Source: a virus
IMG/VR virus record: IMGVR_UViG_3300009605_000128
Span: 1 to 25,359 of that record
Reading direction: 5' to 3' (one strand)
DNA: 25,359 nt
Shown: piece after piece, positions 516 to 20,155 of the stretch
Layout: each line of letters begins with the position of its first letter
How positions within the stretch are numbered: position 1 is the first letter of the stretch
The notes under the pieces: model-generated
Told to the model about the DNA's origin: nothing
What the model saw: the letters and a program-made list of their open reading frames with translations, nothing else
Database searches by the model: none
Program-made: the position numbers and the translations under genes

Positions 516-887
516 ATGAAACGAGTACAGGTATATTACAACATTCGGCGTGGTGATTATTCGGTCCGTCAATCGGGCCGGGTAATTGATCATGTCGACT
601 CTATTGCGCTATCTGATGTCCGTTTCAACGTAGCACCTGCTGGCCGTGATAAGGTCCGAGCTACTGGTGTCAAAAACGTACACGCTACCGTCTCGGGCTA
701 TTTGGACCTACACGCTATGATGAAGGATTGGAACTGTGACTATGTTGCGTACAATCCGTTCAAATATGATCAGTTTGTGAAAATCACTGCCCGTGCTTAT
801 GATGGTTTTGATGCAACCCCTGTATCATCTGCCGATTATGTCGAATTAATGCCGAACCGCGAAATCCGAGCATGGGGGGTCAAATGA
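516..887 (+). CDS. Hypothetical phage protein (123 aa)
   Basis: The start is ATG at 516, preceded by AAAGGAGAG. The protein is soluble and mixed alpha/beta in character, with no cysteine cluster or catalytic motif that I can see. The sequence begins MKRVQVYYNIRRGDYSVRQS, and its internal pattern of short strands suggests a small beta-rich fold. It is tightly packed in the early unit and its stop overlaps the start of the GP88-family gene as ATGA. I cannot assign a function. Confidence 0.7.
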   Translation: MKRVQVYYNIRRGDYSVRQSGRVIDHVDSIALSDVRFNVAPAGRDKVRATGVKNVHATVSGYLDLHAMMKDWNCDYVAYNPFKYDQFVKITARAYDGFDATPVSSADYVELMPNREIRAWGVK

Positions 888-1501
888 CACTACATTTATC
901 TAAAATGTCTGGGAAGCTAACCGGCATACCAGCATACAATACAAACACGACTAGCAATGAGTTTTGTATACGTCAAAAAGATACAGATACCATATGCGGA
1001 GAATGCTATTCACACAGGATGTTAGCTACATACAGGAAGTCGTGTATCCCGGCATTCGAACGAAATTCGGTAGCTTTTGCGGAATGGATAGACTGGGCCG
1101 ATTTACCATTTATAAATGCCGCTTTCGTACGACTAAACGGGCATGGCGAACTGATAAACGAAACTCATTTTGTCAATATTATCAGGCTTGCGCGTAAAAA
1201 CCCGCACACCACATTTGCATTGTGGACAAAACGTGCCAGCATCACCCGCAAGTTCACTAAGCCATACAATGGCAAGAACTTGACGCTGAGAAGAGGTGTG
1301 CCAAATAATTTGATTCTCGTATTCTCAAATCCTAGAATTAACAAGGTAATTGGAGTGCCGCGAGGCTTCCATAAGGTGTTCAACAATGTATCAAAAGGCT
1401 CTACAGAGCCGCAGAACTGCACTGGCAAAAAGTGCATAGAGTGTCTTTTCTGTTACAGAAAGGACAGCGGAATAAACGTAATCGTGGAGCAAACCAAATG
1501 A
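884..1501 (+). CDS. GP88-family cysteine-rich protein
   Basis: This matches the phage gene product 88 family. It opens with LSKMSGKLTGIPAYNTNT, typical of the family, and carries two cysteine clusters: C28, C38, C41 near the N-terminus and C179, C184, C187, C190 in NCTGKKCIECLFCY near the C-terminus. Seven placed cysteines suggest metal or Fe-S binding, but the family's role is not established. I chose ATG 884 because it overlaps the upstream stop (ATGA) and has a G-rich site before it; a start at 872 is also open. The length is 205 aa. A 59-aa gene overlaps its end. Confidence 0.8.
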   Translation: MTLHLSKMSGKLTGIPAYNTNTTSNEFCIRQKDTDTICGECYSHRMLATYRKSCIPAFERNSVAFAEWIDWADLPFINAAFVRLNGHGELINETHFVNIIRLARKNPHTTFALWTKRASITRKFTKPYNGKNLTLRRGVPNNLILVFSNPRINKVIGVPRGFHKVFNNVSKGSTEPQNCTGKKCIECLFCYRKDSGINVIVEQTK

Positions 1502-2172: not shown

Positions 2173-2323
2173 TATAAGCGGTAACCCTTTGATTACAAAG
2201 GAATGATTAGTAATAATGTTGAATGAGAAAGATGACTACCTGTAATAAGCGGCTACAACTCGACTGATTCCTCTATAAGCGGCTACAACTGGTACACTGA
2301 TTCCTCTATAAGCGGCTACAACT
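2173..2323. repeat. Cluster of TAAGCGG direct repeats (operator or iterons)
   Basis: The core ATAAGCGG occurs at 2174, 2245, 2275 and 2308. The last three copies extend to ATAAGCGGCTACAACT (ends 2260, 2290, 2323). A 28-base exact repeat occupies 2263-2290 and 2296-2323, 33 bases apart (about three helical turns), with the preceding copy 30 bases away. The array sits in a gene-free region between divergent units, and its last copy ends 13 bases before the -35 box at 2336. Either repressor or activator sites, or origin iterons, would fit. Confidence 0.7.
2186..2201. promoter_or_regulatory. Inverted repeat near a leftward promoter
   Basis: CCTTTG and CAAAGG form a perfect 6-4-6 inverted repeat. 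On the - strand its inner part supplies TTGTAA, which with TATATG 16 bases on could be a weak promoter for the DUF3310 unit. A protein bound here would cover that promoter. The promoter itself is only about 4 of 6 in each box, so this is tentative. Confidence 0.4.
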
Positions 2324-2335
2324 GAAATAAAAAGC

Positions 2336-7855: not shown

Positions 7856-8187
7856 ATGAATCAGACCTACCCGGGTTTTATACGCCGGAAGAACTGATAG
7901 ATGAGGAAAACTCATCTCAACTTTTAGCAACTAACGAGGTTACTATGTCTCAAGAGTATACGATAGAAGAGGGTGACATCACCCTGTGGGTAAACGATAA
8001 GGAAGGGAACGAGAAACGTCCTGACTATACCGGCAAGGGTGTATTTTCCGGTGGGGAGTTTCGAGTTGCTTTGTGGGAACGTCGTTCCAAATCTGGGAAT
8101 ATGTTTCTCAGTGGTAAGATAGAGAAGCCTTACAACGGCTCCTCATCGAAGCCAGCTGAAGCTCCCCTAGAAGATGTGCCATTCTAA
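7852..8187 (+). CDS. SSB-like protein with acidic C-terminal tip
   Basis: The body (ITLWVNDKEGNEKRPDYTGKG, then FRVALWERRSKSGNMFLSGK) is beta-rich and resembles small OB-fold or DUF736-like proteins. The end, APLEDVPF, is a typical bacterial SSB tip (acidic residues then Pro-Phe) that docks partner proteins. It would coat single-stranded phage DNA. Two starts are possible: GTG 7852 (GTGA overlap, 111 aa) or ATG 7945 (80 aa, weak GAGG site). I list the first because the upstream stretch would otherwise be empty. Confidence 0.62.
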   Translation: MNESDLPGFYTPEELIDEENSSQLLATNEVTMSQEYTIEEGDITLWVNDKEGNEKRPDYTGKGVFSGGEFRVALWERRSKSGNMFLSGKIEKPYNGSSSKPAEAPLEDVPF

Positions 8188-8957
8188 TGAATATCACTTA
8201 TCCAGATGGGGAGATTGTTGAACTTCTCTTCGATAAGCGATTACATTCGTACAAGGTGGGGGAGGAGATAGTACCGAGTGCTACGAAGGTTCTCGATATT
8301 ATCTCCAAACCTGCGCTTGTGCCTTGGGCACTCAAGGTTGGAGTGAACTGGCTGGAGAAGAATGTATTCCAAGACGAAGAGTCATCGTCAAAGAACACCA
8401 AGATTTACAAGTCTAGCATGGGGCTTGACAATATAATCAAGGGTGTTAAATCTGCATACAGAAGCAGCTCTAAAGATGCTCTGAATATAGGGACCATCAC
8501 CCATGACTGGGTAGAGGGAGCTATAAAGTGGAAGCTTAATGGCGGAGAGATGCCGAAGATGCCGAAGCAGGAAGAGGCTCAGAACTCCATCTCTGCTTTT
8601 CGTAAGTGGATTGCGGCTAATAATGTGGAGTGGTTATCCAGTGAAGAGAAGGTATATAACCGTAAGGATGGTTACGCTGGAACGCTAGACGCCAGGGCTC
8701 ATATCAACGGGGAGTATTGTGTAATAGATTGGAAGACATCCAAGGCTATATACCCTGAATACCATTTACAGGTGGCCGCATATGCTAAAGCTGTAGAGGA
8801 TATGCACGGTAAACCAGTAGATGCAACCTACATTCTACGGTGTGATAAGGCATCTGGAAGGTTTGAGGCTTGTAGGTCAACTGATATTGATAAAGACTAT
8901 CAAGCTTTCCTCGCTGCTCTAATTCTGTATAGAAGACTGAAGGAGATAGGTAGGTGA
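8187..8957 (+). CDS. PD-(D/E)XK exonuclease (RecB/Cas4-like)
   Basis: A DNA exonuclease of the PDDEXK_1 type that would resect ends for the Rad52-like protein. Seen: a motif with H106 (GTITHDWVEGA), D168 in GYAGTLDAR, D181-W-K183 in VIDWKTSK, and Q195-VAAYAKA. The ATG at 8187 shares a base with the previous stop (TAATG). I see no cysteine cluster of the Cas4 Fe-S type. The length (256 aa) suits phage exonucleases of this family. Confidence 0.87.
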   Translation: MNITYPDGEIVELLFDKRLHSYKVGEEIVPSATKVLDIISKPALVPWALKVGVNWLEKNVFQDEESSSKNTKIYKSSMGLDNIIKGVKSAYRSSSKDALNIGTITHDWVEGAIKWKLNGGEMPKMPKQEEAQNSISAFRKWIAANNVEWLSSEEKVYNRKDGYAGTLDARAHINGEYCVIDWKTSKAIYPEYHLQVAAYAKAVEDMHGKPVDATYILRCDKASGRFEACRSTDIDKDYQAFLAALILYRRLKEIGR

Positions 8958-9877: not shown

Positions 9878-10049
9878 GTGGGAAGAGGAGAAGCGATACT
9901 ACTTCGCTAGATACTGTTGGGCCAATCAGAGAAGAAGGGCTCCATCCGGTAGAACTTGGATGGAGGTCTTCGACTCGATGGAGAAGGTTTCTTTACGTGA
10001 GTACGCGAGGGAACGTATGAAGGCTAAAGAGTCTCAATCACCCGAATAG
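9867..10049 (+). CDS. Small basic hypothetical protein (60 aa)
   Basis: A TTG at 9867 starts in the last codons of the previous gene. The product is charged and helical, with RYCWANQRRRAPSGRTWM. No family is recognised. Its end overlaps the end of the convergent - strand gene by 26 bases, with no terminator between the two transcription units. Confidence 0.45.
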   Translation: MDNKWEEEKRYYFARYCWANQRRRAPSGRTWMEVFDSMEKVSLREYARERMKAKESQSPE

Positions 10050-10227
10050 ATAGCACGTTCCTTGTTGGTATATACCACAGGTTCCCCCAGTAATCCTTCT
10101 CTTTTGTCATGGCAAGCGTAGTCCACCCTCTGGTCTTCCCAACCAGGAGCCCGAATGTTTTAGTCGCTACGGTCTCGGGGTTATACTCAGCCCAGCTTGC
10201 GTCAGTGTAAGCGTCTACCCAACTCAC
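10024..10227 (-). CDS. Small conserved phage protein (about 67 aa)
   Basis: The last gene of the long leftward unit. The core is SWVDAYTDASW, then TFGLLVGKTRGWTTLAMTKE and GNLWYIPTRNVLSIRVI. I associate this pattern with a small protein common in phages, of unknown function. The start is uncertain: I give GTG 10227, but the frame is open to GTG 10284 and ATG 10326. A non-standard CTG at 10242 overlaps the upstream stop. Confidence 0.6.
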   Translation of the reverse strand: MSWVDAYTDASWAEYNPETVATKTFGLLVGKTRGWTTLAMTKEKDYWGNLWYIPTRNVLSIRVIETL

Positions 10228-10238
10228 CTCGACTAGCT

Positions 10239-10673
10239 TCAGTCCTTTTTCTTTTTTCTCTCCAGAGGACCGGGCAGCACCCACCCTAGAACCATCGGTA
10301 CGAATATCAACAGCAGTAAGAACCATCCACCCATCTCCACTAAAGACCCTAACAGGGTCCAGAAATTATCATTCGCGCAGTCAGTCATGCCATTTGCCTT
10401 CGAGGAATGTGACATCAGGTTCGTCCCCACAGAGCCCACAAAGGCACCCGTCATGCCTCCCACTATCGGTGCAGCTACACCCGAACTCAATACAGTTGCC
10501 GCAGTTGCACCTCCCCCCGCTGCTATCGCTGTAACTCCTGCTTTCTTTATTGTCGTGCATCCTATTAAGAGGCCGCAGGCGGCGAGGACCACCAACCAGT
10601 TAAATACCCAACCAAAGCTAGAACTGCTATTACTCCTACCGCTATTGCAAACATCTTCTTTTTCTTCAACCAT
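10239..10673 (-). CDS. Glycine-rich lipoprotein with C-terminal membrane helix
   Basis: Two lipobox-like sites are visible, LAAC (C33) and LIGC (C39), after a hydrophobic stretch. Residues 46-87 form a Gly/Ala-rich zipper. A clear membrane helix spans 115-133 and the end is RKKKKD. N-terminal lipid plus a C-terminal inner-membrane helix with positive tail is the layout of a unimolecular spanin, which fuses inner and outer membranes at lysis; this is inference. The true start is unsure because the n-region is acidic. It overlaps a membrane protein in another frame at 10565-10673. Confidence 0.6.
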   Translation of the reverse strand: MVEEKEDVCNSGRSNSSSSFGWVFNWLVVLAACGLLIGCTTIKKAGVTAIAAGGGATAATVLSSGVAAPIVGGMTGAFVGSVGTNLMSHSSKANGMTDCANDNFWTLLGSLVEMGGWFLLLLIFVPMVLGWVLPGPLERKKKKD

Positions 10674-10678
10674 TCCAT
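10565..10678 (-). CDS. Tiny membrane protein overlapping the lipoprotein gene (37 aa)
   Basis: The ATG at 10678 follows AGGAG by 6 bases, a better site than that of the overlapping lipoprotein, whose ATG is 5 bases later in another frame. The product is MEWLKKKK, then a hydrophobic helix AIAVGVIAVLALVGYL, then TGWWSSPPAAS. It should be an inner-membrane protein with its basic end inside. A holin-like or lysis-related role is possible given its neighbour, but unproven. Confidence 0.5.
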   Translation of the reverse strand: MEWLKKKKMFAIAVGVIAVLALVGYLTGWWSSPPAAS

Positions 10679-10679
10679 G

Positions 10680-10985
10680 CTAATCTCCTATTGTGAAGCT
10701 ACTTCCGCACCCACAAGATGATGCCCCTGTTGGCGGTGTAAAGTGAAAAGTGGGCCTAAAGGGATCATCTATCCAATCCATCGTTGCGTCTGACAGCAAC
10801 TCCAAAGAGATGGGGTCTGAGAAGATTGTTTCTGAAACCATCCTCGAATCTGGTGGGAGGTCTGGACTGGGTTTTAATTTTATCTGATAACCAGAGCAAC
10901 CACCTCCTTCTAAATGTATACCTAAAAAGCCCTCGCCTTTTAAGGTTTGATCCACTTTCGCTTGAGCTGCTTCTGTTATAGTCAT
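10680..10985 (-). CDS. IscA/HesB-like A-type Fe-S carrier
   Basis: Carries or delivers Fe-S clusters. It has the three family cysteines: C30 in GGGCSGYQ, and C91 and C93 in SSCGCGSSFTI at the C-terminus. The 101-aa length is standard for the IscA/ErpA/HesB family. It begins by ATGA overlap with the zinc-ribbon gene. Phage HesB-like genes are known as auxiliary metabolic genes in marine viruses; clients could be host Fe-S enzymes or phage proteins. Which A-type subfamily it belongs to is not clear. Confidence 0.9.
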   Translation of the reverse strand: MTITEAAQAKVDQTLKGEGFLGIHLEGGGCSGYQIKLKPSPDLPPDSRMVSETIFSDPISLELLSDATMDWIDDPFRPTFHFTPPTGASSCGCGSSFTIGD

Positions 10986-11149
10986 TTGAAATCATCATCT
11001 CTCACATACATATGACTTTTGCCACACCATGGGCAATATAATTCCTTGTTTAATACCACAAAATCTGCGCCATTACTTAATGCTATTGACCAATGTCTGG
11101 AACAAAAAATACACGTAAAATTATGGATTACTTCTTTAGTCCAACTCAT
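10982..11149 (-). CDS. Small zinc-ribbon protein (55 aa)
   Basis: The protein has two knuckles, C13-x2-C16 and C39-x2-C42 (CIFC and CPWC), spaced as in a zinc ribbon. It starts MSWTKEVIHNFTC and ends RDDDFK. Its start lies inside the end of the DUF6356 gene, and its stop overlaps the IscA-like start (ATGA). The cysteines could hold zinc or an iron centre; no other function is visible. Confidence 0.72.
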   Translation of the reverse strand: MSWTKEVIHNFTCIFCSRHWSIALSNGADFVVLNKELYCPWCGKSHMYVRDDDFK

Positions 11150-11312
11150 CAGATAATTTCTTCACCCCTTCAGAAGTTCTCGTAATAAATATAAAAGGTA
11201 ATATTCCATGAACCAAAGCAGTCAACGATAAAAGAAATAATTTCCATGAAAGCCTCCACGCTTTCCTACCATGCCTATACCAACTCATGTCTACATCATA
11301 TAAGTGATTCAT
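11136..11312 (-). CDS. DUF6356-like small membrane protein (58 aa)
   Basis: The protein reads MNHLYDVDMSWYRHGRKAWR, then a hydrophobic helix LFLLSLTALVHGILPFIF, then TSEGVKKLSDEL. The W-x2-H, LVHgilPFiF and S-x2-V-x2-L features fit DUF6356, a short one-helix family of unknown function found in bacteria and phages. A GAGAGG site precedes the ATG. It overlaps both neighbours, which indicates coupled translation in the distal cassette. Confidence 0.68.
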   Translation of the reverse strand: MNHLYDVDMSWYRHGRKAWRLSWKLFLLSLTALVHGILPFIFITRTSEGVKKLSDELD

Positions 11313-11431
11313 TTATCACCGCCTCTCCTGTTAAATAGATCAAACAAAACCCTAACCTTCTCCTCCAGAACCTCTATGCTTGCGTGCATTTTTGCCAATA
11401 CTATTATTAACATAACGACTGCAAGCCCCAA
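11309..11431 (-). CDS. Tiny membrane protein with coiled-coil tail (about 40 aa)
   Basis: The frame encodes a hydrophobic helix LAVVMLIIVLAKMHA followed by IEVLEEKVRVLFDLFNRRGG. Its stop overlaps the DUF6356 start (ATGA). The start is unclear: I list TTG 11431; ATG 11410 would give a shorter form; an ATT further up follows a GGCGGGGG site and would add DLSEYWQ. Similar short helix-plus-coil proteins occur in phages, function unknown. Confidence 0.42.
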   Translation of the reverse strand: MGLAVVMLIIVLAKMHASIEVLEEKVRVLFDLFNRRGGDK

Positions 11432-11457
11432 CTGCCAGTATTCAGATAAGTCAATAG

Positions 11458-11793
11458 CTAAACCCCCGCCTGCGGCCCCTTGGCCTGAAACAATTTGTCC
11501 ATCATCTTCTGAAGATGCTTAATGTTTCTGTCCATCTCCTCGATTCTATATAGGACTACATCCATTCCCTTAACCGTGGATTTAACATCACCCATGTCTT
11601 CCATCAGTTTCTTCAGGTTGTGAATCTCTGTTCCACAAATCTTCGCCTCTTCTTCTAATGCGGGAATCTTTGCATCTACCAATCTGCCTACCCTATCCAT
11701 CTCTGAGGAGATGCTACTAGCCCACCAGATAGCGCCAGTAGACTGAACGATTAAGAACAGTGCTAAAGTTATAATTCTTGAGTCTACATTCAT
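11458..11793 (-). CDS. Membrane-anchored coiled-coil protein (111 aa)
   Basis: One N-terminal membrane helix (IITLALFLIVQSTGAIWW, residues 7-24), then a long charged helix with heptads: DRVGRLVDAKIPALEEEAK and YRIEEMDRNIKHLQKMMDKL. This is the general layout of an inner-membrane i-spanin or holin-associated protein, but it is short of decisive motifs. It overlaps the secreted protein upstream by 4 bases. With lipoproteins in the same transcript, a lysis role is worth considering. Confidence 0.6.
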   Translation of the reverse strand: MNVDSRIITLALFLIVQSTGAIWWASSISSEMDRVGRLVDAKIPALEEEAKICGTEIHNLKKLMEDMGDVKSTVKGMDVVLYRIEEMDRNIKHLQKMMDKLFQAKGPQAGV

Positions 11794-12137
11794 ATGTTCT
11801 CATCCTGTTCGCTTGGTATGTGATCCGGTTCATCAAAGTGCTTAGTGTTATCGCCACTGAATATCAGGCAAGTTTCCCCATCACTGGTAACCACAACAGA
11901 CATACTCTTATCGTCTGGGTCTTCCAGAAGAAAGAGTGTCATATCGCCTTCCTTTCCAATCTCAGAGGTTAGCGAGATGTATTCATGGAAGGAACTCTGT
12001 ACAGCGTACAACATAGTGGCCTCATCTTTGTGGCAGTAAAGTATGAACGGCACCTGCCTTGGGTAGGAGCCGGGTGGCGGGCCCGACAGTGCTGGAGTGG
12101 AAAGTAGTAGTGTTATCAGTGTAAGTAGTGTTTTCAT
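11790..12137 (-). CDS. Small secreted protein (115 aa)
   Basis: A cleavable signal peptide (MKTLLTLITLLLSTPALSG) points to the periplasm. The mature part has two cysteines (ILYCHKDEATM and DGETCLIFSGD) that could form a disulfide. The pattern recalls small exported proteins of unknown function in marine phages. The ribosome binding site GAGGTAAT lies over the stop of the 971-aa gene. Confidence 0.65.
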   Translation of the reverse strand: MKTLLTLITLLLSTPALSGPPPGSYPRQVPFILYCHKDEATMLYAVQSSFHEYISLTSEIGKEGDMTLFLLEDPDDKSMSVVVTSDGETCLIFSGDNTKHFDEPDHIPSEQDENI

Positions 12138-12138
12138 A

Positions 12139-15054
12139 TTACCTCATTGCTCTGCGTTTTTCTCTCTGAAGCTCTCGCCTTCGCATCTTAATATCTTGGA
12201 GTGCTTCACGTTTTTCCTGTCCGTCTATTCCCCCAGCCTTATACTCTGAGAGGATATTCCTCTTCTCAGCGTCAAGTTCTTTCAACTTCCTGATGTAGTA
12301 ATACCCTATACGTCGCTTCTGTTTCCTTGTGGACACAGGAGTAACCTTTACTCCGAAGCCACTCAGGTAAGCAGCGGATGGTGTATATACATCCTTGGTG
12401 CTACTGTACTTTCCACTCCTTGCGCGGTCTATCTTACTTCCAGAGTAAGACGGGAATCCAGGGATAGGCAGGTTTGGTGTGAACTGCCTTCCAATTTCCT
12501 CTACCCTAGCCCCCCAGTTTGAAGGGATGGGTTGACCAGTGAACTGCTTTATCCCAAACGACGGCCAGAGTATACCACCGGCTGCACCGAATGAGGGCTG
12601 AAGCCACTGTGGGAGACCGGGAATCTGCCCGACACCGCCTTCCGCGCCTTGAAATATATCCCCACCGGGATACATACGAGAGGTATTAAGATACCAAGAG
12701 TCTCTTGTCTCAGGAGACATGGACTTCGGCAGCTTTATCATCCCCTCTGGCATAAATGGTAAGCCCCACCAGCCTTTTGATTTCTCCCCGCGCATCAGTC
12801 TTCTCTGCTTTTCTATCTCACTCTCGCTTTCATCGGATAGTTTCTCGCCAGCAGAATTCAGGGTATGCAAGAAGAGTCCCCACTTTGCGAACTTTATAGG
12901 CTTCTTCGCCGCTGTCTCACCAATCTTTGGGATTACACCGTACATATAAGACATGAATGGAAAGGGACCTTCTCTCATAACCTCAAGGACCGGGGAGGTT
13001 CTTTCGTAATCAACAAACCATTCTCTAGCTTTCCTTGCCGCACCCATCTGTGCGTTCTCCACTGTATCCCCATTAGCTATAAGCCTAGACTTCTCTGATC
13101 TGTACAAGGCCATCCTGAAGACTTGATCCTCTGCGTTGTACAGTTGAGCCATCTTGTCCCATGTTATACCTTTTGTCCTGCTGTAAATTCTGGAAAGCAT
13201 TGATGGGATTGACTTGGCTATATCAAGGTTATCAGTAGCTCCGGCACCCTCTCTGGATAAGAGCTTGAAATAATCATCAGCCCCAGAGCCAAGCTCTGAT
13301 GAGAAGAATCCACCGAACACCCCTTGAGACTCCGCCTCCCGGTACTCGTCTGTCTTCTTGGCTAAATCCTTGACAGCCCTTATGAAATCCGTAGACCTGC
13401 CATTGGCGAAATCATAATGCACAATGTTAGATACGAAGTTATTAAAATGGACAGCTGGATTAGCTATAGTCTTCGAACCCTTCCAATACTGGTTCAGCTT
13501 CCTATACTTCTGCACCCAAGGATGTCTCTTGTAAGCGGATAAGGCATTCATCTGGTTTATACCAGCGAGGTCTCTCATGGTTTCCCTTGTAACGAAATGC
13601 TCACCATCACCGAGGGCACCGTACTTTTTATCTTTGGGGACTCGAACCATAAAATCCCCTTCGGGCTCCCCAACGCTGCTGATGTTCTTATTAACTGCCA
13701 TATCCTTGAAGAACTTGTTTGCAGATACATCGTTGGCGAGTATCTTTCCGGTCCTGTCTATAGCCAACATGGCATCAGTAACCTCCCCCATCTCCAACCT
13801 CTCTTCGGGGCTCCAGTCTCTTCTAACCCGGTACTTATCGTCACCTATAGAATCCACAACACCCCATTTACCCTTATCGTCCGGCCTTCTACCGGCGTCC
13901 CATAACCTAGAGCTAACGTCCTTTACATACCCCCTCATTTTTAACTCATCACCTATGTGACGAATGTTAACGTCGGAGGGCATCTTATTTAATCTCTCAG
14001 GATCATTATAGGTACGGTGGAGGTAGGTATATTTGTTCTTCGTCCAAGTCTTCTCATCAAGCAAGCCAAGATCAACCAGCCTCTTTCCGTACTTGTTAAC
14101 AAGCTCCCTACTCCTTTCTCCCAAGCCAGAAAGCTCCTTATCAACGGGAGCCTCTGAATCAGTCAGCATATGGTACAGTTTCTGTCGAGATTTCAAAGGT
14201 AATTCAGACATTTCTTTGATAAGAGACTCAAACTCACCCTGTATAAATTTTCTTTCCCCTTTGAATACAGACCTGCCATGAATCCACTCATCAGCAAGAC
14301 GGTAATCGGGGATGATCATACCCCCGAGCTTTCCTGTGAGATCATCTGTAACACCCATCTTATCGAGAGCTTTAGGTGTTGCTCCAACGCCTGCTCCTAA
14401 TGCAGCAAACTTCAAGGCGTTCTTTATCTTTTCTTCAGTGGTGGCATTCTCCCCCATGTTCCACCCGGCTAAACCACCTACGGTAGCCCCAGCACCGGAG
14501 GGATGCTTCAACACATTCCAGGCAGCATCACCGGCCTTATTATTCCAGAAGTCTCCGACACCTTTAGCTACAGGCATGGCCGCAGCACCCATACCAGCGC
14601 CAAGCATTCCTTGTTCTACACGGCCCATCTTTCCCTCACCCACAAGGGACTCCATCTCCGGGTCTACATAACCAAGACCACCGGCAATAGCCCCTGCTCC
14701 TGCGGCTGGTGCAACCCCCCTTGTAAGTATCTTTCTCGCTGTGTTAAGGTGCTTGAGCCTTGATATGGGAACCAGCCATCCAGCAGGGTCAGCAATAAGC
14801 CCGGCGAAATAAGTTGCTGTTACAGACGTGCCATACTCAGGGTCATCCATAGCTACGTTAAGCTGTCTCTGCTCCTCCGCCAAGGTTTCCTCATCTACAC
14901 CCGCAAGCTGTTGTATACCCCTTGCTGTGTCAAGGAACCCCAGCCTTCCGGCAAGCCATAGAGCCTCCTTCCTAGAGAGCCTCTTCCTTTCCTCATCTAA
15001 GTATGTAAAGCTGGAGGTCTTGGGGGTCTCATAAAGATATGTAAAGGAACCCAT
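12139..15054 (-). CDS. Large internal virion / DNA-ejection protein candidate (971 aa)
   Basis: Size, place among structural genes, and composition fit a podovirus internal core protein that is ejected into the cell. It has Gly/Ala-rich hydrophobic stretches (about 112-165 and 186-226) that could contact membranes. Near residue 525 the motif NPAVHFNNFVSN resembles segments of large polyvalent proteins in phages. The C-terminus is a very basic helical tail (KMRRRELQREKRRAMR). I see no lysozyme or transglycosylase motif. The start shares a base with the previous stop (TAATG). Confidence 0.66.
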   Translation of the reverse strand: MGSFTYLYETPKTSSFTYLDEERKRLSRKEALWLAGRLGFLDTARGIQQLAGVDEETLAEEQRQLNVAMDDPEYGTSVTATYFAGLIADPAGWLVPISRLKHLNTARKILTRGVAPAAGAGAIAGGLGYVDPEMESLVGEGKMGRVEQGMLGAGMGAAAMPVAKGVGDFWNNKAGDAAWNVLKHPSGAGATVGGLAGWNMGENATTEEKIKNALKFAALGAGVGATPKALDKMGVTDDLTGKLGGMIIPDYRLADEWIHGRSVFKGERKFIQGEFESLIKEMSELPLKSRQKLYHMLTDSEAPVDKELSGLGERSRELVNKYGKRLVDLGLLDEKTWTKNKYTYLHRTYNDPERLNKMPSDVNIRHIGDELKMRGYVKDVSSRLWDAGRRPDDKGKWGVVDSIGDDKYRVRRDWSPEERLEMGEVTDAMLAIDRTGKILANDVSANKFFKDMAVNKNISSVGEPEGDFMVRVPKDKKYGALGDGEHFVTRETMRDLAGINQMNALSAYKRHPWVQKYRKLNQYWKGSKTIANPAVHFNNFVSNIVHYDFANGRSTDFIRAVKDLAKKTDEYREAESQGVFGGFFSSELGSGADDYFKLLSREGAGATDNLDIAKSIPSMLSRIYSRTKGITWDKMAQLYNAEDQVFRMALYRSEKSRLIANGDTVENAQMGAARKAREWFVDYERTSPVLEVMREGPFPFMSYMYGVIPKIGETAAKKPIKFAKWGLFLHTLNSAGEKLSDESESEIEKQRRLMRGEKSKGWWGLPFMPEGMIKLPKSMSPETRDSWYLNTSRMYPGGDIFQGAEGGVGQIPGLPQWLQPSFGAAGGILWPSFGIKQFTGQPIPSNWGARVEEIGRQFTPNLPIPGFPSYSGSKIDRARSGKYSSTKDVYTPSAAYLSGFGVKVTPVSTRKQKRRIGYYYIRKLKELDAEKRNILSEYKAGGIDGQEKREALQDIKMRRRELQREKRRAMR

Positions 15055-17159
15055 TAAACCTCAGCCTTATCTAGACCTATAACAATAAAATCACCCTTCT
15101 TTATTTTACCAGCCCTCAAAGCGGCTTCCGCTTCTTCCTCATTTGCGAATATGGCCTTCACTTCTCCAGCCCTCAAAGCAGCTTCCGCTGCTTCCTTATT
15201 TGCGAACGTGACCCTCACTTTTTGCGTTACTGGTGTCCCTTGATTTTCTGCATCGCTGACTAGGCGCAGAGCTTCTTCTTCCCCAAGTGCTTGCTTAATC
15301 ATATTCTGAATCATAGCTCTCAGTCTATCCTGCTCTTCATTCGAGCCATCCCAATCTCCACTAGAAATAATGCGCAATAGAGGAGTTAAAGAACTGACAG
15401 ATAGGCCAGCAGGGGGTCTCCGAATGGCCCTAACCATCATCCCGTAAGCATCAGCCGCAGCCTGAAGTTCTACCTTATCAGCCCCTTCGGCTGCTGCCGC
15501 TTTTGCATTCATGCGATTCCAAATATTAAACTGTTCGGTACTCACGCCACCTTCCGTGCCTATACGAGCTGGTCCTGAACTTGATGGTTTTCCCTTCACC
15601 CATCCTGGGCCCGGGTCCACGGCTCTACGAACCACTTCAAATTTGGTTGGGTCTTTGGGGTCCACCCTGTAATACTGCTCCTTACTCGCCTTCTTCGGAT
15701 GATGTCCGTAGATAGCAGACGCCTCTTCTGGAGAAGCTTTGAACCTCAAGGCTCTTTCATACGCCTCCTTCTTACTATTCGGCGGGTCATAATTCCCGGC
15801 TTCGTCAAAGTAAACACCCCGGTGTATATTGTAAAGCCTCTCTTCCTCATCAAACTTTTCTATAATCTCAAGCTGTCCTATAGCATACTTTGTGTATGCG
15901 TCAGATTGAGAAGTTCCACCAGTAAAGGTGGCTATCATGTCGAGCATGAGCCCCTTCATAAAGATGTTATTCAACTGGCGGAGGAATTCTTTCTTTCTTT
16001 CGTTTGGGTTTTGCGCGAAGCTTCCCCAGATTCTATTTAGGGTTGGATCATTTGATGCATCCTGACCATTCTTCGTATTACTGGCACCTTCTGATGCCCT
16101 GTTTGCGTCATTTAGTTTTTGCTCCGCGTCTCCAATTACTTTACTAAGGTCTTTCTCAACCTCTTCTACTTCTTTGGGAGATGCTCCGGATTCTTCAACG
16201 GTTTTAAGCACCACATCTGCGGGAGTGGTTGAGTCATCTGTTTCATTCGACGAAGGAGGAATGAAGGCAAACCTTCCTCCCCCGACGTGCTGGGGTAGCA
16301 TACCTTCATCTGATAACCAATCAGCAACACCTGCCCCAGCTCCTGCAACTCCAGTGCCTATACCAACCTTCGTTAATGTCTTCCATTTGTCCGTAGGACG
16401 CTTACCCTTTGACTGGCGATTAACTCTGTTCCTGCTTACCCACTTAAAGAATGCCTCTTTCCCTGACTTGGCAAGATTGCTAACAGACTTCAGCCGTCCG
16501 GCGACTCCCAAGGAAATTAAATCTTCCATGTATACCGGGTCACCTTCATCTGTAATGTACAAAGGTTTATTAGATGCCATCTCTAATTGTTCTGAGCCGG
16601 TGGGGAAACGCCAAGGGTCCACTTGAGGCGGGGCCTCTGCATCAGCGAGAAGGGAGCCTGTGGCCTGCTCTTCTGGAATTAGTTCCTGCCTCTGGAAATC
16701 AGCGTACTGCGCCAGCGCATTCTCTGCCTCTTCCTGAGAAGGCGCGGCAGTTCCTTGCTCTTCTCTAGCGGCCTGCTGTGCCATCTGGGCATACCAGTCC
16801 TGCATTCCCCTCTCGTCATGCTCCGCATCTCTGCCGGAAAAGTCATCGAGCAAGCCCTGTTGAATATCCCTCATCTCCGCCTTCTGGGAAAGCTGGTGAT
16901 TCTTCAGTGCGGTCTCATACGCCTTATCATCGTCTTCTATTGTAGTCGTATAGGTTGTTGCTACATCCGGGTCATCAGACTCCTTGATGACTGTCCTTGT
17001 TTTCTTCTCCCTCTCTTCTTCCGGTTCTTCAATTAAGGTTGACTGACCGGGCCAAGGGAAGCCCCCGTACTCCTCCCCGCCTGATTCCAAAGCAGCTAGA
17101 ATCTCCGCGAAGGTGCGCTTCTTCTTCATAAACGGTGGTGTTCCTACGAATCCTGGCAT
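15054..17159 (-). CDS. Large structural protein, probable internal virion protein (701 aa)
   Basis: A mostly helical, charged protein with Gln/Glu/Ala-rich regions (about 100-160), a Gly-rich hydrophobic segment VGIGTGVAGAGAGVADW near 267-285, and a C-terminal pair of repeats (FANKEAAEAALRAG and FANEEEAEAALRAG). It sits between the 172-aa and 971-aa genes with one-base junctions. I expect it to be an ejected core protein like its neighbour. No enzymatic motif is seen. Confidence 0.62.
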   Translation of the reverse strand: MPGFVGTPPFMKKKRTFAEILAALESGGEEYGGFPWPGQSTLIEEPEEEREKKTRTVIKESDDPDVATTYTTTIEDDDKAYETALKNHQLSQKAEMRDIQQGLLDDFSGRDAEHDERGMQDWYAQMAQQAAREEQGTAAPSQEEAENALAQYADFQRQELIPEEQATGSLLADAEAPPQVDPWRFPTGSEQLEMASNKPLYITDEGDPVYMEDLISLGVAGRLKSVSNLAKSGKEAFFKWVSRNRVNRQSKGKRPTDKWKTLTKVGIGTGVAGAGAGVADWLSDEGMLPQHVGGGRFAFIPPSSNETDDSTTPADVVLKTVEESGASPKEVEEVEKDLSKVIGDAEQKLNDANRASEGASNTKNGQDASNDPTLNRIWGSFAQNPNERKKEFLRQLNNIFMKGLMLDMIATFTGGTSQSDAYTKYAIGQLEIIEKFDEEERLYNIHRGVYFDEAGNYDPPNSKKEAYERALRFKASPEEASAIYGHHPKKASKEQYYRVDPKDPTKFEVVRRAVDPGPGWVKGKPSSSGPARIGTEGGVSTEQFNIWNRMNAKAAAAEGADKVELQAAADAYGMMVRAIRRPPAGLSVSSLTPLLRIISSGDWDGSNEEQDRLRAMIQNMIKQALGEEEALRLVSDAENQGTPVTQKVRVTFANKEAAEAALRAGEVKAIFANEEEAEAALRAGKIKKGDFIVIGLDKAEV
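15109..15206 (-). repeat. Tandem 57-base duplication inside the 701-aa gene
   Basis: Two 41-base segments (15109-15149 and 15166-15206) differ at few positions and are 57 bases apart, in phase. They encode two copies of a 19-residue unit, FANxEEAEAALRAGxxK. The remaining differences mean the duplication is not fresh. Confidence 0.8.
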
Positions 17160-17677
17160 CAGTAGCTCCTCCTCTTTTTCTTCCTAAACGGGTCCATGTC
17201 AGGACTGTAGAAATCCTGTATTTGAACACCGTACATATCTTCTGGAGTTGGAACACCGAAAGAACCTGGCCTTCTCCCAGCACCTGGAGAACCCCGTAGT
17301 GGTTTAATAGAGGGACGGCTAGTTGCCGTCTTCAAAGCCGCAGCGAGGAAGTTCTTATCGAGTGATTTAGAAAAGGTGTCGAAGGTTGCTCCCTGTGAAT
17401 AGGGGTTCATATCCTCTGACGCTTTCATAACATCTTCTGAGAACATGGTGGGTTCGTACTCATCACTCATTGGATCATGGACCTCTCTTGCATCCTGTAA
17501 GGCTTTTATCCGCATGATCCTATCCGGACCAAGATTGGGTATATTGACCTCATCCTTACTATATTCCCAGATAGGGTTACCAAAGATACCATCCTGAGAA
17601 TCCTCGAACTCTTCCTCGTCAATAAGGATACCAGACTTGGCTGCCCTCAGTTTCTTTTTCCAATCTTCCCAATCCAT
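17159..17677 (-). CDS. Hypothetical virion-associated protein (172 aa)
   Basis: The N-terminus is acidic (LIDEEEFEDSQDGIFG). The C-terminal half is Pro/Gly-rich and basic (PLRGSPGAGRRPGSFG, ending RKKKRRSY). Its look suggests a partly disordered linker or scaffold-type protein. It shares one base with each neighbour in the structural block. No family is recognised. Confidence 0.6.
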   Translation of the reverse strand: MDWEDWKKKLRAAKSGILIDEEEFEDSQDGIFGNPIWEYSKDEVNIPNLGPDRIMRIKALQDAREVHDPMSDEYEPTMFSEDVMKASEDMNPYSQGATFDTFSKSLDKNFLAAALKTATSRPSIKPLRGSPGAGRRPGSFGVPTPEDMYGVQIQDFYSPDMDPFRKKKRRSY

Positions 17678-18876
17678 TATAGTAGACCGTAGTTAACGTG
17701 TTTAATTCCCCCAAACTCAGCAACAGCGGAAGGGTTGGTCCTCTCGACTTCCTGCGCTATTACCCCTCTTCGTCTATTACTATCACCCAAGTAGTTAAAG
17801 GTGTAAGCATTATGGCCCCTTATGGTTCCAGAAGGTTTTATGTTTTCCTTAACCCTCACATCAGATGCCATGATGGCGGCTGAACCCAGTGTTCCTATTA
17901 AGCTCATAATATCACCACCACCGCCGCCGGTACTCGTCTGAGTCCCTCCGTAGTTACCAGAGATAGTATTCATAAACTGGTTGAGTGCGTTGCGTGGAGC
18001 ATTAGCCTCATAGTTATACCTCTGCATATCTGCGTTGATCTGCCTTTGGTTTAATGCCTGCCTATCCCTACCGACTCCGGCCATCCTGTCATACAGGGAG
18101 AACGGGGCATTCATCATACCCGGGTATTGAGCTGTTGCGCCTAGCCCTAACTGTCCCGCGCCTTGAGCAGCGCCTAGCCCCTGTAAACCATACCCCATAC
18201 CGTGCTGCTGGGCACCAAGGCCCATCTGCGCGGCTGGTAACCTCATTCCTTGAGCCTGCTGGTATGCGTCACTGTACATCTGAGCCATAGGTTTAGTAAG
18301 CCCCGATGCAACGGCGGAAGATATAGCCTTGTTCTGTTCTAGTTGACCTCTTGAGCTTCCACCGGGCTGATACTGCATCTGTTGCTGCCTTAAACCGGGG
18401 AGTATGTTACCTTTCAGATTACCCATAACACTCTGTGTAAGAGCATCTGCGGTGCTTTTGAATGGGCTTCTAGGACCGAGGTTAACATTACCGGCCATTA
18501 GGTCTCTATACTGCTTTTGCTTAAAAGGGGTTAACCTGGAGAACTGGCTCTGGCTCAGAGGTCTAGCCAAAGATTGACCATACCTCCCTGCTCTAGCCCC
18601 CATACCCGCTAGATTGCGGGACAGGCCATAGGTGCCAAGGAGTTGGTTCTCTGCCCCAGCCTGCTGGGCAGCTGCCCTTGGGCCCATAGCATAGCCAAGC
18701 GTAGCCTGATGTGCAGCCTGCTGCGCTGGGTCAAACCCTGCTACCGTAGCCCCCGGATAGTAACCCGGCATTCCCTTTTCATATAGCCTTTTAGCCTCAT
18801 CGAAACCGCCTAGAAGAAATGGCTTCTGCTCGGCCCAAGGCTCATTTGTTGTTGTAGTCGTTGATCCGCCACTCAT
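17677..18876 (-). CDS. Structural protein with C-terminal S74 self-cleaving chaperone domain
   Basis: The body is Gln/Gly/Ala/Met-rich (for example AQMGLGAQQHGMGYGLQGLG) with no fibre-like beta repeats. After a Gly run (317-321) the last 62 residues match the Peptidase S74 intramolecular chaperone: S338-D-V-R-V-K343, then GHNAYTFNYLG and RRRGVIAQEVERTNP, ending VNYGLL. In this family a Ser-Lys pair cuts the chaperone off after it has assembled the protein. Here the rest looks like an ejection or head-neck protein rather than a fibre, which is unusual. Confidence 0.8.
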   Translation of the reverse strand: MSGGSTTTTTNEPWAEQKPFLLGGFDEAKRLYEKGMPGYYPGATVAGFDPAQQAAHQATLGYAMGPRAAAQQAGAENQLLGTYGLSRNLAGMGARAGRYGQSLARPLSQSQFSRLTPFKQKQYRDLMAGNVNLGPRSPFKSTADALTQSVMGNLKGNILPGLRQQQMQYQPGGSSRGQLEQNKAISSAVASGLTKPMAQMYSDAYQQAQGMRLPAAQMGLGAQQHGMGYGLQGLGAAQGAGQLGLGATAQYPGMMNAPFSLYDRMAGVGRDRQALNQRQINADMQRYNYEANAPRNALNQFMNTISGNYGGTQTSTGGGGGDIMSLIGTLGSAAIMASDVRVKENIKPSGTIRGHNAYTFNYLGDSNRRRGVIAQEVERTNPSAVAEFGGIKHVNYGLL

Positions 18877-19409
18877 TATAACAACCCTCCTGACCAGTCT
18901 GTTAATTCAACAGGGTCATAATTCCATATACTTTTAGGGACATATCTACTACCACCCTCTCTGGTCCAAGGCTGGTACAAAGCACCCTTACCTTTGGAGA
19001 GGTTGGGGCCTCTGAACAAACCCCTGTTTTGCTGTACCCCGCGAGGCATAAACTTGCTAAAATTACGAACCCCGGGAGCTTCGTACTCTTGTTGAGCCAA
19101 GGGGTGAAACCAGTCTATATCTCTAGGATCAGGGGTTAGGTCTATAGGTACTATAGGTTCAGAACCATTCCCATTACCATTACCGGGGTCATCACCTTGG
19201 GTGCCTATATTTTCTGCTGACGTACCAGGGTTAGCGGGGTCAAAATTATCTTGCTGCCTTGCCGCGTGCCACTCAGCATTCGCCAGCATAGAATCCCAAT
19301 CACCCCATTCGAATGGTGGCCCATAATCACCATAATCAGGATCAGCCGTACCTTGACCACCTATTACATCTTGATTGGTATCAATTTCGCCTTCCCCACC
19401 GAAATACAT
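18876..19409 (-). CDS. Hypothetical virion-associated protein (177 aa)
   Basis: Acidic and low-complexity at the N-terminus, with a Gly/Asn stretch near residue 77 (GNGNGNGSEP) and a conserved-looking C-terminal part (GVRNFSKFMPRGVQQNRG, SIWNYDPVELTDWSGG). It resembles the disordered linkers around it. No catalytic motif or known family is seen. Confidence 0.58.
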   Translation of the reverse strand: MYFGGEGEIDTNQDVIGGQGTADPDYGDYGPPFEWGDWDSMLANAEWHAARQQDNFDPANPGTSAENIGTQGDDPGNGNGNGSEPIVPIDLTPDPRDIDWFHPLAQQEYEAPGVRNFSKFMPRGVQQNRGLFRGPNLSKGKGALYQPWTREGGSRYVPKSIWNYDPVELTDWSGGLL

Positions 19410-20155
19410 TACTTCTTGCCTCGTAAGGCTCGGTGCATCGATTTAGACCACTTGCCACCGCCTTTTTCAACCTGCTTTTTTGCCCGGCCCATCTTACCAC
19501 TGGCAGCAAACTCTCTAGCCTTTGCCATGCGGCCACCAGATACACCAGCAAATGGGTCAGGCTGCGAAATGCCACCGACTTCACCGACTGCAACCTCATC
19601 AGCACCCCCTCCAGGGTAAGGTTCAGGACGACGCATCCCGCCACCACCCATATAGCCTGTGCCACCCTGCGCTGGGTCATCAGGGCCACCCGTCACAAAC
19701 GCTGGACGGAGCATCCCTCCTGGTGGCTGAGGCGCTATTGTTGGCGGTGGGCTGGGAAACCCTGGCCGTTGCATTCCGCCACCGTTAGCCTTCTCCCAAC
19801 CTGGGGGGGCCTGCCACCCGCCGTGGCTTGCGGTCCATTTTTGACCAGTAGTTGGATTGACGTAATCAACCATGGCAGAAGTTGAGAGTCCGCCACCATG
19901 AGTAAATCCCGGTGGGGCTCCAGACCCCTGGCCCGGTTGTCCAGACGGCCAGCCACCCTGCTGAGGCCCACCAAAGCTAGGTTGTCCAATACGTCCACCT
20001 TGGCCCCAGGGGCCTTGCTGCGGCATTCCCGGGTTTTGAACATATCCTGGTTGACCCATTCCAGGGGGTCCACCAAACGTGCCAGCTGCACCACCTGTTG
20101 GGCCAGAAGGCTGTCCCGGTTGGCCGGGCTTCCATTGATTTGATCCAGCTGCCAT
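19409..20155 (-). CDS. Gly/Pro/Gln-rich disordered structural protein (248 aa)
   Basis: The first two thirds are almost entirely Gly, Pro and Gln (GQPGQPSGPTGGAAGTFGG). The short motif GGGM(Q/L/R)RPxF is repeated three times (GMQRPGF, GMLRPAF, GMRRPEP). The C-terminus is basic and helical (GRAKKQVEKGGGKWSKS). The protein should be disordered, perhaps packed inside the virion or linking components. The opposite frames also stay open because of composition; this frame is chosen because it joins its neighbours by shared bases. Confidence 0.62.
   Translation of the reverse strand: MAAGSNQWKPGQPGQPSGPTGGAAGTFGGPPGMGQPGYVQNPGMPQQGPWGQGGRIGQPSFGGPQQGGWPSGQPGQGSGAPPGFTHGGGLSTSAMVDYVNPTTGQKWTASHGGWQAPPGWEKANGGGMQRPGFPSPPPTIAPQPPGGMLRPAFVTGGPDDPAQGGTGYMGGGGMRRPEPYPGGGADEVAVGEVGGISQPDPFAGVSGGRMAKAREFAASGKMGRAKKQVEKGGGKWSKSMHRALRGKK

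Follow-up and report, generated by a model that had tools for sequence, protein, structure and literature searches.

A divergent, phage-specific A-type Fe-S carrier in a variable slot of a marine viral gene cassette, with a nested cysteine-rich reading frame nearby

Virus record IMGVR_UViG_3300009605_000128, of which positions 1 to 25,359 were analysed (25,359 bases, hereafter the window), encodes a genuine A-type Fe-S carrier, for which cluster binding and transfer are predicted from its sequence and modelled fold. The carrier family is divergent and phage-specific by sequence comparison, and its gene is probably accessory cargo that a marine podovirus-like lineage keeps in the variable slot of a distal late cassette, within a lysis region. 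The observations behind this reading are the family assignment, the predicted fold, the intact cluster ligands, purifying selection, the conserved cassette, the turnover of the slot and the cysteine-poor late proteins.

Family, fold and selection of the carrier

An IscA-like carrier had been proposed in the sequence-only reading of this DNA, and the identification held. The protein passes the NCBIfam model TIGR00049 (58.9 bits, cut-off 58.8), falls below the cut-off of Pfam PF01521 (23.9 against 26.3 bits) and does not reach the equivalog cut-offs for ErpA (48.3/117 bits), SufA (39.0/136.2) or IscA (37.1/150.6). A profile built from 22 relatives and searched against the PDB returned HI1723, IscA and SufA at 6e-11 to 8e-6, with IscA/HI1723 as the best match (6e-11). 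The AlphaFold2 model (pLDDT 88.8), compared using Foldseek, resembled IscA with a [2Fe-2S] cluster (1x0g; TM 0.80, E=3e-6). Furthermore, Cys30, Cys91 and Cys93 are invariant across 29 phage and 59 cellular sequences, and dN (0.02-0.15) lies far under dS (0.9-2.8) wherever the two were computable, indicating purifying selection on the carrier.

The carrier shares the predicted fold and the GGGCSG and CGCG motifs with E. coli IscA, SufA and ErpA, whereas it is only ~20-30% identical to them in the fold alignment and scores far under their equivalog thresholds. Its full-length identity to cellular carriers in the sampled genomes is at most ~37%. In the tree, 27 of the 29 representative phage carriers form one clade (support 74), and a second A-type carrier found in relatives sits on a long branch. 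Among cultured phages only low-identity, host-like IscA/ErpA genes were found, in six records. The title of a study cited in PMC10721903 reports that DsrR, an IscA-like protein, binds neither iron nor an Fe-S cluster; the phage carrier, in contrast, keeps the cluster ligands.

The late cassette and its variable slot

The window is divided into two opposed blocks. Rightward genes encode a DnaB-like helicase, RusA, Erf, a ribonucleotide reductase (RNR, with a weak class II signal) and an exonuclease; the leftward block carries structural and tail-like genes and meets the rightward block at 10024-10049. The six ORFs of 10680-12137 described earlier are all present, all on the minus strand behind virion-side genes, at the distal end of the leftward block (Table 1). 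The cassette extends past 10680 to take in a TM peptide, the lipoprotein-like ORF (LIP), a nested cysteine-rich ORF and a 100-aa ORF. Upstream, the 971-aa ORF has homologues at the same place in L002 and L020, and no Pfam or PHROG match. At the other end of the window, the motif ATAAGCGGCTACAACT repeats in an intergenic stretch (~2230-2330, plus strand) ahead of the early genes starting at 2409.

Table 1. Coordinates of the cassette genes and their upstream neighbour in the window.
Feature	Position	Strand	Remarks
971-aa ORF, zero Cys, presumed virion or internal protein	12139..15054	-	cassette's upstream neighbour
Secreted 115-aa protein, signal-peptide-like N-terminus (SEC family)	11790..12137	-	
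N-terminal TM and coiled-coil protein (CC family)	11458..11793	-	
Short helix/coil membrane ORF, TTG start uncertain	11309..11431	-	rare among relatives (5 matches)
DUF6356 small membrane protein	11136..11312	-	PF19883, E=1e-13; present in most relatives
Zinc-ribbon-like CxxC...CPWCG protein	10982..11149	-	4-nt overlap with carrier
A-type Fe-S carrier (IscA/SufA/ErpA-like), Cys30, Cys91, Cys93	10680..10985	-	TIGR00049
37-aa single-TM peptide MEWLKKKKMFAIAVGVIAVLALVGYLTGWWSSPPAAS	10565..10678	-	ATG 1 nt past carrier stop
LIP, lipoprotein-like ORF	10239..10673	-	candidate lipobox Cys; ectodomain rich in glycine; putative C-terminal TM; basic tail
Nested out-of-frame 59-aa Cys-rich metallothionein-like ORF, 8 Cys	10381..10560	-	ATG overlaps lipobox codon
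100-aa ORF, last before convergent early region	10024..10326	-	weak SSB-like phrog_12631, E=0.004; conserved in place

The genes had been described as translationally chained, and they do run in one direction, overlapping or nearly touching. The 971-aa ORF stops 1 nt ahead of the secreted gene, the secreted/coil, helix/DUF6356 and ribbon/carrier junctions each overlap by 4 nt (the last, an overlap already noted earlier, at 10982-10985), and DUF6356 and ribbon share 14 nt. The chain is interrupted, however, between the coil and helix ORFs, where the TTG start leaves a gap of ~26 nt. Promoter and terminator signals inside the region do not exceed those of shuffled sequences, consistent with a single late transcript. 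The late expression suggested previously for the carrier agrees with its late-side position; we infer lateness from strand, gene order and the missing internal promoter.

At least 360 confirmed viral relatives of the carrier were found in IMG/VR, and this recurrence in a common gene order rules out chance as the origin of the cassette. In the loci read the genes usually come in the order virion-side gene, secreted protein, small TM/coil proteins, DUF6356, TM-coil protein, p144, p85, variable slot and carrier, followed by TM peptide, LIP, SSB-like ORF and the opposed early genes. Members are absent or moved in places, the carrier preceding p144 in L039 and L079, and the window itself has neither p144 nor p85. 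Cultured phages gave no match to DUF6356, to LIP or to the nested ORF.

The slot holds a second A-type carrier (L012, L014, L023, L061, L076), a SufT/MIP18-like protein, the ribbon or combinations of these (L093), or is empty. In a set of 55 LIP-anchored loci, gathered without the carrier as query, the carrier occurs in only 27, which marks it as accessory. No carrier was found elsewhere on the contig in 13 longer LIP-bearing records chosen as carrier-less.

These contents could also mean that the slot is a hot spot where unrelated small genes collect, the carrier being one more auxiliary gene of host origin, generic in kind and unconnected with the lysis genes. Slot contents do vary and decay: the carrier has an internal deletion in L086/L087, and in L085 the ribbon is joined to a start resembling that of DUF6356. 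Moreover, some relatives have a 2OG-Fe(II) oxygenase (L014) or methyltransferase-like genes (L025, L057) close by. Yet the carriers form a divergent, phage-specific family whose position ahead of LIP is kept, and the slot repeatedly contains second Fe-S maturation genes. We therefore regard the hot-spot explanation as possible, though unlikely, and prefer accessory cargo in a late cassette.

Some details of the slot are recorded here for their own sake. The second carrier is a very divergent 107-aa protein whose C-terminus reads GMCGGCGGAGH or nearly so, and its gene lies just ahead of that of the first (second-carrier loci L006, L012, L014, L022, L023, L028, L061, L076, L093, L137 and L160). 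SufT/MIP18-like genes (PF01883) lie just upstream of the carrier at L031:5821-6150 (E=7e-12) and L051:1641-1967. At L086:5373-5531 the internally deleted carrier, with 52 aa left, adjoins an intact ribbon.

The ribbon has two conserved cysteine knuckles and an AF2 model of pLDDT 74, and found no convincing Pfam, PDB or fold match, rubredoxin and known zinc-ribbon families included. Its pairing with the carrier does recur in other genomes: 12 of 16 distinct ribbons overlap the start of an A-type carrier by 4 nt (one of these carriers is internally deleted, and the ribbons of L023 and L024 are near-identical). The ribbon also occurs in 6/27 carrier-bearing and 0/28 carrier-less LIP-anchored loci (Fisher p=0.01, optimistic as the loci are related). 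Both counts would fit a dedicated pair in which the ribbon acts as electron donor, metal donor or adaptor. Against this, the ribbon stands directly upstream of only 8/89 distinct carriers (~9%), and junctions just as close join the carrier to DUF6356, coil, p85, p90 or the second carrier, so that a 4-nt overlap is a general trait of the slot and weak evidence for partnership. The ribbon is moreover found without a carrier in L085 and L088, several genes away from it in L054 and before DUF6356 in L121. A dedicated pair thus appears rather unlikely. Of the partnership suggested earlier, the modest association remains, while the junction has lost its weight; the ribbon is an optional slot neighbour, perhaps with a helper role.

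LIP and the nested cysteine-rich ORF

The conserved TM-peptide gene directly after the carrier (10678-10565) is below the usual ORF cut-offs, and a comparable peptide is present in 65/74 LIP loci. LIP has candidate starts at 10673 (ATG), 10595 (TTG) and 10592 (GTG). The lipobox cysteine is present in 74/74 homologues and is preceded by glycine in 70; its retention, although the nested frame does not demand it, suggests that LIP is real too. The LIP frame is open in 74/74 loci against 21 expected, a biased comparison since the loci were selected by LIP. The C-terminal hydrophobic segment and basic tail are conserved, as judged by eye from the alignment.

In its candidate lipobox cysteine, C-terminal hydrophobic segment and basic tail, its small size, its overlapping gene and its lysis-like surroundings, LIP resembles a unimolecular spanin of the T1 gp11 type. 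It differs in giving no sequence match and in having a cysteine where the protein is presumed to be periplasmic (C99 of LIP in the window; 45/74 homologues have cysteine at one such column), whereas 58/58 known u-spanins lack periplasmic cysteine (PMC6139136). On account of this residue and of the unclear start and signal region, we have not filed LIP as a unimolecular spanin.

The nested ORF lies in the +2 frame of LIP, opens just past the TM-peptide stop codons and follows the pattern CxCx2Cx4CxC...CxCx2C. An alternative is that it is no gene, only a shadow of the Ala/Val-rich stretch of LIP, as Ala and Val codons following T-ending codons yield cysteine in the nested frame. Codon resampling already gave 6.3 cysteines under the null, with 9.3 as the observed mean, and was equivocal gene by gene; the question was decided by a column-wise test at fourfold sites, using 74 LIP genes below 80% identity and seven nested-Cys columns. 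The third base was T at 308/350 sites in the nested-Cys columns (88%), as against 191/1994 in the other overlap columns (10%) and 280/980 in the non-overlapping C-terminal part of LIP (29%). The Cys columns were taken from the same alignment, which leaves the p-value not clean, but the contrast persists below 60% identity (17 sequences; 66/78 vs 48/446) and below 50% (6 sequences; 25/29 vs 16/152). Likewise, at each level of divergence the third base is more often identical in the overlap (0.63/0.54/0.42) than in the C-terminal part (0.37/0.31/0.29). The start ATG is conserved, and standalone ORFs of the same cysteine pattern occur in three LIP-less loci with carrier and ribbon (L025, L057, L061); a search for further standalone copies returned only L025 again. 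Taken with the excess of cysteines over the null, these results make a mere shadow of LIP very improbable.

The nested ORF is thus treated as a probable gene, previously unannotated and metallothionein-like, whose product is, from its sequence, probably a cytosolic metal binder; a link to the carrier is conjectural. Like metallothioneins it is short and cysteine-rich, contains CxC and CxxC motifs and shows no clear signal peptide; unlike them it is encoded out of frame inside another gene and gave no Pfam or NCBIfam match, metallothionein models included. No paper on a phage metallothionein was found among the openly licensed literature. The conservation of the nested ORF suggests that annotation misses small metal-binding phage proteins. 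A broader reading would join the carrier, the optional second carrier, the SufT-like protein, the ribbon and the mini-protein nested in LIP, taken as a lysis lipoprotein gene, into a late metal-handling module that controls the metal or Fe-S status of the dying cell; we consider this doubtful.

Site of action and published viral carriers

A late carrier might serve the virion, as the sequence-only reading suggested with metal loading as an example. The carrier does lie directly behind virion-side genes, and Fe-S hub proteins exist in siphophage-type tails (PMC10276861), such as the tail-tip hub proteins with a four-Cys cluster of lambda (gpL) and roseophage R4C. However, the upstream late proteins are nearly free of cysteine: six consecutive ones (2,668 aa; window 12139-20155, minus strand) have none. 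In carrier-bearing loci, late long ORFs average 0.25% cysteine, against 2.0% in opposed long ORFs; both figures come from ORF calls over loci some of which are near-duplicates, and part of the opposed ORFs may be spurious. The cysteine-richer late ORFs are mainly a 553-554 aa terminase-looking ORF, and a 713-aa tail-like protein has six scattered cysteines. Portal and capsid genes may sit outside the window, which leaves some room for virion loading; it is nevertheless very improbable that the carrier furnishes a virion protein with Fe-S clusters or metal, and the scarcity of cysteine in the virion-side proteins speaks against iron-loaded particles in this lineage.

A setting in a lysis region is more likely than virion metal loading. 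In the cultured Pelagibacter phages HTVC027P and HTVC010P the p144-p85 pair has a peptidase M15 gene close by, p144 relatives lie near a lysozyme gene in HTVC121P, and 34 of the 38 phage records with p144 relatives are Pelagibacter phages. These neighbours suggest that the cassette is a lysis region and that the host is SAR11-like, in both cases by way of the relatives, since p144-p85 is missing from the window. The lysis function proposed earlier is upheld as regards this setting and weakened by the same absence; no recognised endolysin was found in the window.

What the carrier does and how the cassette genes are linked, as well as when they are expressed, we infer from this arrangement. The carrier would be co-transcribed late with virion and membrane/lysis genes and, as the cassette has no scaffold gene, would receive clusters from the host's own assembly machinery. 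It may then hand them to host or phage apoproteins, and Fe-S enzymes could thereby be sustained until lysis. Cluster maturation is suggested by the second A-type carrier and the SufT-like protein that relatives have in this slot.

A-type carriers of viruses are known as a kind; the present one, from a divergent family in a late exit slot, is a variation on it. Viral A-type carrier (ATC), IscU and PaaD genes have been reported in marine genomes (PMC5332604), erpA and iscU in HMO-2011-type phages (PMC9038755), and Fe-S cluster proteins in viruses of sulfur oxidisers (PMC10721903). The present carrier is likewise a phage-borne A-type carrier, sometimes with PaaD/SufT-type genes. It is set apart, by description, from the published ATC, sufA/erpA and IscU genes in its divergent family, podovirus-like lineage and late lysis-region slot, and it sometimes has a second A-type carrier as neighbour. 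Fe-S genes of ocean viruses are usually treated as generic metabolic helpers, and the tie to a late exit slot makes a role testable.

No client of the carrier was identified among the proteins considered. The exonuclease (8187-8957), considered as a Cas4-type Fe-S nuclease, has only three scattered cysteines. The best cysteine-rich candidate, a GP88 family protein, was set aside, being present in 2/24 carrier-bearing and 2/26 other records (50 records). In its own right, this protein (PF17338; window 872-1501, plus strand) has eight cysteines and is a possible metal or Fe-S protein.
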